Assembly: GCA_946631295.1 (NCBI GenBank)
Contig: CAMOZY010000010.1
Span: 1 to 51,690, forward strand
Length of the DNA: 51,690 bases
Source of the DNA: an uncultured Lachnospiraceae bacterium
GTDB taxonomy: Bacteria > Bacillota > Clostridia > Lachnospirales > Lachnospiraceae
Direction: 5' to 3'
Part shown: one piece after another, positions 49,298 through 51,690 of the stretch
Position numbering within the stretch: the first letter of the stretch is position 1
How the letters are laid out: every line of letters starts with the position of its first letter
Notes under the pieces: generated by a model
Told to the model about the DNA's origin: nothing
Seen by the model: the letters and a program-made list of their open reading frames with translations, nothing else
Database searches by the model: none
Position numbers and translations under genes: made by a program

Positions 49298-50515
49298 TTA
49301 CTTTTCAGAATACTTTCTGATGATATTACATATAATGTTTACCACTGCATCCATTCCCTCTGCTGTTATATGTTCAAGCGGGCCATGGAATGCATATCCG
49401 GCAGTACCGAGATTCGGGCAGGGAAGTCCGCGGTATGAAAGCTGTGCTCCGTCCGTACCTCCACGGATAGGAACGTCGGAAACATTTCCGCACTCCTCTT
49501 CTATACACTTCTTTGCGGTATCGACAATATGAATGTGAGGCTTTATCTTTTCTATCATGTTGCGGTACTGGTCAGTAATGGTTAGAGTTACCGTTCCAGC
49601 GCCATACTTTTCATTCATATTCTTTTCGATAAGCCTTAATGTTTTCAGCTTTGCATCAAAAAGGTTCGCATCGTGGTCTCGTACGATATATGCTATTTCT
49701 GCATTTTCAACATCTCCGGTTATATCAGTAAGGTGATAGAATCCCTCGCGCTCCTCTGTGTTTGCGGGAGTTTCCGCGGCAGGAAGCATGGATGAAATCT
49801 CACATGCAAGAAGTGCTGCATTTATCATACGATTCTTAGCGCTTCCCGGATGCACGCTTATTCCTTTTATCTTAAACACTGCTTTTGCAGCATTGAAATT
49901 TTCATACTCGATCTCATTTTCTGGACCGCCGTCTATCGTATATGCAAAGTCCGCATCAAATGCTTCAAGATCAAGAAGGCTTGCACCATGTCCTATCTCT
50001 TCATCCGGAGTAAAAGCGATACAGATCTTGCCGTGAGGAGTCTGACCCTTTAATATCTCCTCAGCCATTGTCATGATCACCGCTATTCCCGATTTGTCAT
50101 CAGCACCAAGAAGAGTTGTTCCGTCGGTTGTGATCAGTGTCCTTCCCTTAAGTCCCGGCAAATGAGGGAATTTACCTACGCTCAGAACGATACCGTTTCT
50201 AAGTTCAACGTCTTTCCCGTCATAGTTTTCATGAATGACCGGATGAACATTTTCTCCCGACGCATCAGGTGCTGTGTCAAGATGAGCTATAAAACCGATC
50301 TTAGGTGCATTCTCATAACCTTCGGTAGCAGGTATATGTCCCATGACATATGCATTCTCATCAACAGACGTATCCTCTATTCCCAGTGCTTTCATTTCCT
50401 CTGCAAGAAGATTTGCCAGATCAAACTGTATCTTTGTCGATGGCACAGTCTCCGAATTTTCATCACTCGTCGTATGGATCACCACATACTTTAAAAGTCT
50501 TTCATATGCTCTCAT
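49298..50515 (-). CDS. pepT: Peptidase T (tripeptidase)
   Basis: This zinc aminotripeptidase of the M20 family releases the N-terminal residue from tripeptides. The 405 residues show IGFIAHLDTAPDA near 72-84, TTLLGADDKSGIA near 135-148, FTPDEEIGHGA near 170-180 and TIDGG near 193, giving the expected two-zinc ligands. The dimerisation domain follows, and RGGTDGAQLS near 350. The start at 50515 follows GGAGG. It lies 64 bases behind the nuclease gene at the right edge, with a dispersed repeat in between. Confidence 0.95.
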   Translation of the reverse strand: MRAYERLLKYVVIHTTSDENSETVPSTKIQFDLANLLAEEMKALGIEDTSVDENAYVMGHIPATEGYENAPKIGFIAHLDTAPDASGENVHPVIHENYDGKDVELRNGIVLSVGKFPHLPGLKGRTLITTDGTTLLGADDKSGIAVIMTMAEEILKGQTPHGKICIAFTPDEEIGHGASLLDLEAFDADFAYTIDGGPENEIEYENFNAAKAVFKIKGISVHPGSAKNRMINAALLACEISSMLPAAETPANTEEREGFYHLTDITGDVENAEIAYIVRDHDANLFDAKLKTLRLIEKNMNEKYGAGTVTLTITDQYRNMIEKIKPHIHIVDTAKKCIEEECGNVSDVPIRGGTDGAQLSYRGLPCPNLGTAGYAFHGPLEHITAEGMDAVVNIICNIIRKYSEK

Positions 50516-50541
50516 TTCTTATTTCCTCCATCTTAATTAAT

Positions 50542-50579
50542 GGTGCCAGGTAACATTAATTTTTATTAATGGTGTCATT
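50542..50579. repeat. Copy of the dispersed GGTGCC repeat
   Basis: GGTGCCAGGTAACATTAA (50542-50559) is identical to the core of the repeat at 33579-33598, followed by a partial second copy ATTAATGGTGTCA. It lies immediately behind the stop codon of the minus-strand gene at 50580. Confidence 0.8.
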
Positions 50580-51690
50580 TTAGCGGTCGCCGGCCATCAT
50601 AAGATCGTAGATCTGGCGGACAAGCTGATCGGGAGTATCATTTTCGGTGACACGTATCGTCATGACATCCATCATTTTTCCGCGTTTTGCCTGAAGACGG
50701 TTTGCCTGACGCTTCATCTCAAGTTCTTTGCCATATTGATCTTCGGCAGGAGCATGGTTTTCACCAAGTTCCGCAGTCGTGAGCAGTATACGCACCGCAT
50801 CTATTCCAAACATATCCTCGAGACTGCCAAGTGTCAGATAGTAGTCCTGAGTAAGTTCTGCTCTTGCCTTACATTCCACAAAAGCTGATCTGTAGCCTTT
50901 TGTAACGATAAGATCCAGCTCATTTTCAACATTCTTATCAGACCACAGCCAGTGATAACCGCTCTCCGCATCATCAAACAGTCCCGACTCACATGCCGCA
51001 TAATAAACGCATATCTCCAGCACATCTCCTGCCTTTGTCATAAGACGTTTCATCTCACGGTCACGGAATCTGTAAATCTGATCCGACTTTCTGCCGTTAT
51101 TATCGTCGCTCCGCCCGCCCGCCGGAAGGATCAGTTTTGCCTGACGAAGTTCGGAAATTATGTGAAGGATATTATTGTGATATGCGCCTCTCCACGCATT
51201 TTCCATTTCCCGGACATCAAAGCTGTCATCTTCATTTTTCTTTTTGTTAAAGTACGCCCCAAGCGAAGCGCAGAGAATATTCCAGCTTCTCGTTTCAAAG
51301 GTCACCTTATCAACAGGGTATTTTCCACGGAACATGTTGCGTGAAGCACCTATATAGATCTCCCACAGCTTCCTGTAATCACGTATCAGAATTTCCGGAT
51401 GACCTGACAGCTTATCGCTTCCTCCTGCCAGAGCAAACATTTCATCCACCCGCAAAAATGATCTGTCAGGCAGGAAGCGCAAATGCCCGGCATCACCTTC
51501 ACACAGAAATTTACGCCCGCGCACATCATATCTGAATATCGGAAAAGCAGCCTTCACAGCTTCCACAAAAGAAGCATTATTTACAGCATCCTTAAAAGGA
51601 GCCTCCGACAGATCAACAGCCTCTACACCAAGCGCCTTCATTGCAGTGATCCATTCATTCAGGAGTTTTTTCTTATTGCCGGGTTCACCT
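50580..51690 (-). CDS. Card1/Can2-like (DUF1887) PD-(D/E)XK nuclease, C-terminal part (partial)
   Basis: The frame is open to the right edge, so the N-terminus and the start are missing; the ATG at 51641 is only the first visible methionine. Numbered from it, the C-terminal region carries the nuclease core: E209 in VLEICVYY, D243 in NELDLIV and E256-C-K258 in AFVECKAR, followed by YYLTLGSLEDMFGI. This matches the Card1 endonuclease domain (NEIDV...G...FISCK). In that family an N-terminal CARF domain senses cyclic tetra-adenylate from type III CRISPR complexes and activates DNA or RNA cleavage. The middle part (about 85-200) would be the connecting helical region. The CARF part, if present, lies outside the window. 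A different restriction-type PD-(D/E)XK protein remains possible. Confidence 0.72.
   Translation of the reverse strand, partial: GEPGNKKKLLNEWITAMKALGVEAVDLSEAPFKDAVNNASFVEAVKAAFPIFRYDVRGRKFLCEGDAGHLRFLPDRSFLRVDEMFALAGGSDKLSGHPEILIRDYRKLWEIYIGASRNMFRGKYPVDKVTFETRSWNILCASLGAYFNKKKNEDDSFDVREMENAWRGAYHNNILHIISELRQAKLILPAGGRSDDNNGRKSDQIYRFRDREMKRLMTKAGDVLEICVYYAACESGLFDDAESGYHWLWSDKNVENELDLIVTKGYRSAFVECKARAELTQDYYLTLGSLEDMFGIDAVRILLTTAELGENHAPAEDQYGKELEMKRQANRLQAKRGKMMDVMTIRVTENDTPDQLVRQIYDLMMAGDR

Follow-up and report, generated by a model that had tools for sequence, protein, structure and literature searches.

A Card1/Can2-like nuclease gene cut by a contig end in a Lachnospiraceae genome, probably the tail of a CRISPR-independent kinase fusion

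The stretch of DNA that we analyzed (the window) is, according to the assembly record, the complete contig CAMOZY010000010.1 of 51,690 bases. It belongs to an assembly of 95 contigs and 2.54 Mb that is 90.96% complete. As had been predicted, a reading frame is open at the right edge of the window: on the minus strand, 369 codons (50583-51689) run through the contig end, with a stop codon at 50580-50582. We refer to the product of this partial coding sequence (50580..51689, minus strand, by ORF reading) as P0001; it comprises 369 residues plus the stop, and its N-terminus is cut by the contig end. Because the window is the whole contig, the assembly itself stops at its right edge, and the part of P0001 that is absent is the N-terminus. 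Based on base composition alone, about 10^-3.5 stop-free runs of this length are expected in a window of this size. The GC3 of the gene is 0.455, which equals the mean of the 38 other long ORFs in the window, and composition therefore shows no sign of a misjoin.

The next gene downstream (49298..50515, minus strand, from the ORF list) is a peptidase T-like neighbor that we place outside the system; its gene name is carried over from the original prediction, not from a family search. None of the 8 congener pepT loci that we examined has a relative of P0001 beside it. Between the stop codon of the nuclease gene and the next start codon (window positions 50516-50579) there are two copies of a short repeat, TTAATGGTG.

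The C-terminal part of P0001 contains a PD-(D/E)XK nuclease core, which we delimit to residues 211-310 (50760..51059, minus strand) using a Pfam and a PADLOC match. The Pfam match, to Card1_endonuc (PF09002), covers residues 213-304 with an E-value of 5.9e-4, and its 19.9 bits are below the curated cut-off of 26.4; the fusion proteins described below that were scanned with PF09002 are likewise under this cut-off. The PADLOC match, to CARF4--CARF_PDDEXK, is the best among the CARF-PDDEXK models and covers residues 207-305 with an E-value of 1.3e-10. The gene had originally been assigned to the Card1/Can2-like (DUF1887, PF09002-like) nucleases, and the PADLOC match and the catalytic motifs uphold this assignment, with the Pfam match remaining sub-cut-off. 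The patterns NELDLIV, FVECKAR and LTLGSLEDMFG that had been pointed out are all found in the P0001 translation. The same is true of the residues given as E209, D243 and E256-C-K258, which were numbered from the first ATG of a 353-residue ORF; the full open frame adds 16, making them E225, D259 and E272-C-K274.

By motif, the catalytic residues are E257-L-D259 (50913..50921, minus strand), identified from invariant columns, and E272-C-K274 (50868..50876, minus strand), identified from the alignment of relatives. Across seven aligned relatives, E225, E257, D259, C273 and K274 are invariant, and E272 varies. P0001 has the PD-(D/E)XK domain with ExD and ExK that is expected of Card1/Can2 nucleases. 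By motif, E257/D259 are likely counterparts of E276/D278 in SthCan2, and E272/K274 of E302/K304 in TsuCan2. The E276/D278 double mutant of SthCan2 is described as inactive, and E302/K304 of TsuCan2 were also mutated (PMC7969007).

Among proteins of known structure, a profile of P0001 and six relatives finds VC1899 (E 8.7e-14), Can2 (E 5.9e-13) and a further DUF1887 structure (E 2e-10). A profile consisting of the nuclease part of P0001 and three fusion tails, with no stand-alone proteins, finds the DUF1887 structure 8bao (E 9.6e-6); with this profile, VC1899 (0.032) and Can2 (0.45) are among chance-level matches. A search of the PDB with P0001 alone returned no match.

The similarity to Card1-like proteins is not confined to the core. 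We built a 20-row model of stand-alone Card1-like proteins without P0001, and P0001 scores 81.8 bits against it, with residues 34-313 aligned to model positions 95-370. The stretch from residue 1 to about 92 (51414..51689, minus strand) corresponds to the latter half of a CARF-like domain. Of these residues, ~34-92 align with that half, and 1-33 occupy the position expected for strand 4 and the preceding helix. Residues 1-195 alone give a weak match of 12.3 bits to the same model, where the best of 200 shuffles reaches 1.2. The original prediction expected the CARF domain to the right of the window. Its first half would indeed lie past the contig end, where by extrapolation about 60 CARF residues are absent, but its second half is already inside. 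The middle region (residues 93-210; 51060..51413, minus strand), as defined by the collinear HMM alignment, consists of a linker and a part that, judging from the family, is probably a winged helix. Structure predictions were of low confidence, with a mean pLDDT of 40.6 using a single sequence and 38.1 using three sequences. The three-sequence model, in which block means of 55-77 are reached only by residues 1-60, has predicted helices (H) and strands (E), also of low confidence, at H3-19, E24-26, H33-37, H39-48, E51-56 and E59-66.

These observations bear on the idea that P0001 is an unrelated PD-(D/E)XK nuclease, of the restriction or NERD type, that is Card1-like only in its catalytic core. 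Such a nuclease could explain a Pfam score under the curated cut-off, and one of the fusion proteins, L038, has a NERD match in Pfam, although this match is weak and below its cut-off. However, the collinearity continues past the core, across the linker and into the half CARF domain, with a score that none of 200 shuffles reaches, and no restriction or NERD family matches P0001 in Pfam, PADLOC or a further family scan. We consider this idea extremely improbable.

We located the site of the CARF ligand motif, D25-L-S-E-A-P-F-K32 (51594..51617, minus strand), by comparing the alignments with the published signature. The signature follows strand 4 and is given as [DN]X[ST]XXX[RK] (PMC4012209). 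P0001 departs from it: D-x-S is kept, TGG is replaced, and the basic residue is shifted by one position toward the C-terminus. Of the 44 scored stand-alone proteins, 42 have a TGG-like motif, and one of the remaining two is a 202-residue fragment.

Card1 and Can2 are cyclic-tetra-adenylate effectors of type III CRISPR systems. By analogy, P0001 might be a type III effector activated by cA4 whose CRISPR locus is in an unassembled part of the genome. Its resemblance to Can2 and its intact catalytic site fit this explanation, and a locus could be missing from an assembly that is 91% complete. However, we found no match to Cas1 in this assembly (90.96% complete), using a model that has matches in 9 of 14 control genomes. 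We also found no true Cas10: the only match to the Cas10-palm model, which finds matches in 5 of 14 control genomes, is a GGDEF protein that scores 19.9 versus a cut-off of 27. There is no array-like repeat in the window, nor in 100 stretches that cover 1.47 of the 2.54 Mb of the same genome. Among the scanned stretches of relatives, only L016 has a regularly spaced repeat, which is a 20-mer in three copies. The absence of TGG from the CARF motif of P0001 is a further argument against cA4 as the activator. Thus, the repeat scan and the Cas10 and Cas1 models agree with the original statement that no CRISPR array or cas gene is in the window, and give no support to the type III CRISPR link that had been suggested as possible. 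Because the assembly is incomplete, the absence of CRISPR genes from the genome is likely, not proven. We regard a cA4-activated type III effector as quite improbable.

To place P0001, we collected its relatives. Among 30 congeners, four carry a match, and none of the four is close (26-29% identity). At an E-value of 0.001, matches are found in 19 of 396 other genomes of the family and in 32 of 390 other genomes of the class. Most relatives with loci are stand-alone proteins of about 360-440 residues, which are common in both the family and the class. The position of the ExK glutamate is occupied by S in 44 of 44 scored stand-alones, where P0001 has E; the second list of stand-alones had been filtered by a motif in which either S or E was accepted, and L103 failed this filter. 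It may be that the 44 S-bearing proteins are inactive or altered nucleases that are kept as sensors. One candidate relative, L010, appeared ATPase-like by eye and was dropped.

Searches of plasmids, phages, viral contigs and the genome_contigs collection directly with P0001 yielded no match. A two-row alignment found only L053 in genome_contigs, and this is the contig of L038. Plasmids gave no match to the window region at the DNA level, and none to the fusion protein L108 at an E-value of 1e-20. A motif scan of viral contigs produced eight stretches, and one of them (L061, 9219-10340; viral contig IMGVR_UViG_3300024996_000127) encodes a Card1-like protein in which the motifs TGGTK and VECK occur. 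In another locus (L041, 8688-10358; also L024), a stand-alone Card1-like frame leads by eye into a deaminase-like tail, with 556 residues in total.

In the search of the class (391 genomes), the best matches after P0001 itself are frames of 1371 and 1420 residues, which score 65.1 and 52.6 bits, compared to 48.8 for the best stand-alone protein. These two frames contain L108 and L109. The large proteins that we studied are fusions of 1359 (L108), 1412 (L109), 1507 (L038), 1051 (L039), 1005 (L079) and 1427 (L080) residues. A kinase domain is found above the Pfam cut-off in L108, L109 and L080 and under the cut-off in L038, and none is found in L039. In L108 and L109, the kinase is N-terminal and the Card1-like nuclease forms the tail. 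The region between kinase and CARF has, by eye, a Rossmann-like sequence pattern that is common to the fusions. It includes a stretch of the EHxRW type that resembles RyR domains; the Pfam RyR model has no match up to an E-value of 1 in the fusion proteins P0002 and P0003, and we make no claim of such a domain.

The fusions vary in how well their individual parts can be recognized. With the 20-row model, the CARF match is clear in L109 (56.7 bits), L039 (42.4 bits) and L079 (24.5 bits). There is no match above 3 bits to the CARF part of L108, and L038 has only 6.5 bits, over the part after CARF. We left L080 out of the nuclease comparisons, as its motif is not recognizable. Of the five scored fusions, three (L108, L038 and L079) have the same E in ExK as P0001, and the other two have S; L109 keeps TGG. 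Long inserts precede the nuclease in L038 and L039, and P0001 is without them. L108 has about 177 residues where P0001 has 93.

We compared the nuclease domain of P0001 with both kinds of relatives. A model of the nuclease of five fusions scores P0001 at 94.5 bits, with a bias toward this model in that L108 and L109 were chosen by best match to P0001. Nuclease models of stand-alone proteins reach 73.2 bits using all 42, at most 70.9 bits in 100 random sets of 5, and at most 78.5 bits when the sets were picked, or improved by climbing, to fit P0001 as well as possible, the picked sets being meant to offset that bias. In single-sequence comparison, the stand-alones L083 and L020 match P0001 better than L038, L039 and L079 do. 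L109, when left out, scores 88.8 bits on the stand-alone model versus 55.8 on the fusion model. The better fit of L109 is thus to the stand-alones, and the fusions do not make up a single clean class.

In a tree of 46 rows, from which L005, L031, L104 and L106 were left out, P0001 groups with L108 and L038 (support 96/83) and, in the next larger group, also with L109 (96/88). Support for a branch that unites all five fusions is 48/76, and L039 pairs separately with L079 (98/92). If L038, L108 or L109 is omitted in turn, P0001 stays with the other two (95/91, 81/86 and 100/97, respectively). AU tests leave three alternatives for P0001 unrejected: a position among the stand-alones (p 0.116), one outside its three nearest fusions (p 0.23), and one outside all five (p 0.052). 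A 25-row tree without L108 and L109 has P0001 with the fusions (86/87), and the stand-alone placement is again unrejected (p 0.377); after removal of L039 and L079 from this tree, P0001 moves to the stand-alone L021 (59/53). Judged by the model scores and the 46-row trees, the P0001 nuclease domain appears nearest to the kinase-fused group, and the AU tests and the 25-row tree are compatible with other placements.

These data also allow us to assess an explanation in which P0001 is a Card1-like orphan that stands alone and has the usual length of about 430 residues, comparable to VC1899 or the many stand-alones of Lachnospiraceae. Its CARF pocket would have drifted and would bind another ligand. 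The S that replaces E in ExK in every scored stand-alone is an argument against this explanation, as are the nuclease model scores and the larger trees, which favor the fusions. On the other side, stand-alones outnumber fusions in every search for relatives with P0001, the stand-alone model aligns collinearly with residues 34-313, the inserts of L038, L039 and L108 are absent in P0001, and the AU tests do not reject a stand-alone placement. There is also a precedent in VC1899, which is described as an orphan that is not regulated by cA4 (PMC7969007). We consider a simple stand-alone protein doubtful, but worth serious attention. The original prediction had included a stand-alone effector among its options; this option fits less well, since the score of the nuclease domain is higher with the giant fusion proteins; the AU tests reject neither.

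We searched the assembly for the missing N-terminus. No contig was found in it that overlaps or continues the window end, and a search of the whole genome with the fusion L039 found only P0001 at an E-value of 0.01. Comparison of the fusion N-termini with 100 stretches of the genome (1.47 of 2.54 Mb) gave one match under an E-value of 0.01, which is a kinase at the left end of contig C4 (E 6e-4). We rejected this candidate, as its neighbors make it look like a housekeeping prkC; it is presumably prkC-like, and the neighbors are, by our assignment, PP2C, rlmN, rsmB, fmt, def, priA and recJ. Because the missing N-terminus was not found, and several contig ends were outside the survey, we can only infer the kinase part of P0001.

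The neighborhoods of the fusions and the stand-alones differ with respect to TIR genes. With a TIR model built from five of the genes found, four of which are from fusion loci, five of the six fusion loci contain TIR genes, 9 in all over 115 kb, versus 2 of 17 stand-alone loci (256 kb). As background, they occur in none of 8 congener pepT loci and at two places in 1473 kb of the genome that carries P0001. Pfam TIR_2 is above its cut-off in all 9 proteins tested, 7 of which come from fusion loci. PP2C genes are located directly before L108 and L038.

Several individual loci have further arrangements. In L109 (6180-7748), a TIR domain is fused to a Ser/Thr kinase according to Pfam, near the kinase-CARF-nuclease gene. 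In L039 (2796-6510), ThiF-family and AAA genes, also according to Pfam, precede the Rossmann-CARF-nuclease fusion, and this arrangement presumably resembles ubiquitin-like defense islands. In two congeners (L013, 2913-5294; L015, 1-2310), a stand-alone Card1-like gene follows a TIR-TPR gene after a gap of about 20 bases, which suggests that the pair is a two-gene TIR/CARF cassette.

Our preferred reading, which we hold with moderate confidence, is that P0001 is the C-terminal part of a CRISPR-independent, signal-gated Card1/Can2-like nuclease that is probably fused to a kinase and most likely belongs to a branch encoded near TIR and, in some cases, PP2C genes. P0001 has in common with Can2/Card1 (DUF1887; 7bdv and 8bao) the order of a CARF-like part (here its second half) and then PD-(D/E)XK nuclease, as well as the ExD and ExK residues. 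It differs from them in that no CRISPR genes were found, in the replaced TGG and shifted basic residue, and in that the protein is probably longer. VC1899 of Vibrio cholerae (1xmx) is similarly described as an orphan CARF-nuclease without CRISPR and with a changed ligand pocket (PMC7969007), but it is a stand-alone protein, whereas P0001 groups with fusions in the larger trees. The fusions L108, L109 and L038, which are from other Clostridia-type genomes of the same class, are nearest by nuclease model and tree, and L108 and L038 share the ExK with E. However, their identity to P0001 over the nuclease region is 26-31%, CARF is clear only in L109 among the three, and the N-terminus of P0001 is unseen.

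Zn-ribbon-kinase-AAA-CARF-wHTH proteins, noted in 2014, have a kinase upstream of CARF (PMC4012209). This family differs in having an AAA ATPase, and its description there names no nuclease. The same source places VC1899-family genes, e.g., Daci_4198, in Ter / type VII-like clusters that are not linked to CRISPR. P0001 resembles these genes in that no CRISPR genes were found with it, but the fusion neighbors that we tested are TIR and PP2C genes. In a literature search at the level of titles and abstract openings, we found no description of a kinase-Rossmann-CARF-nuclease fusion, and we do not claim that the fusion is undescribed. A term search of the main text of PMC12669027 found neither kinase nor RyR.

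We propose the following working for this protein. P0001 provides half of a CARF-like sensor, then a linker that probably includes a winged helix, and finally a PD-(D/E)XK nuclease whose E...ExD...ExK site is intact. This module would form the C-terminal end of a protein of some 1.4-1.5 thousand residues whose N-terminal portion comprises a Ser/Thr kinase and a Rossmann-like region, and that is encoded in a CRISPR-independent locus near TIR and, in some cases, PP2C genes. The trigger might be received by the N-terminal sensor/kinase part, or it might be a nucleotide other than cyclic tetra-adenylate that binds the altered CARF pocket, or both. In Can2, ligand binding across the CARF dimer is reported to open a metal-dependent nuclease cleft (PMC7969007). 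Analogously, the trigger would open a nuclease dimer, and metal-dependent cutting of nucleic acid would then halt phage replication or the cell. Because the pocket motif is altered and the catalytic site is intact, we favor the interpretation that P0001 may be an active nuclease with a trigger other than cA4.

A broader and more speculative hypothesis is that there is a CRISPR-independent immune family of proteins of about 1400 residues that combine a kinase, a Rossmann-like sensor, a re-tuned CARF and a Card1-type nuclease, and that act with TIR and PP2C proteins. Under this hypothesis, which we consider rather unlikely, a TIR-made signal or a phospho-signal, instead of a Cas10 product, would fire the nuclease. 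If it is true that the Card1/Can2 nuclease module also serves kinase fusions encoded beside TIR and PP2C genes in CRISPR-free genomes, this module can be activated by other signals. This would bear on the role of orphan DUF1887 proteins, such as VC1899, and on the question of whether TIR-made nucleotides have CARF receptors.
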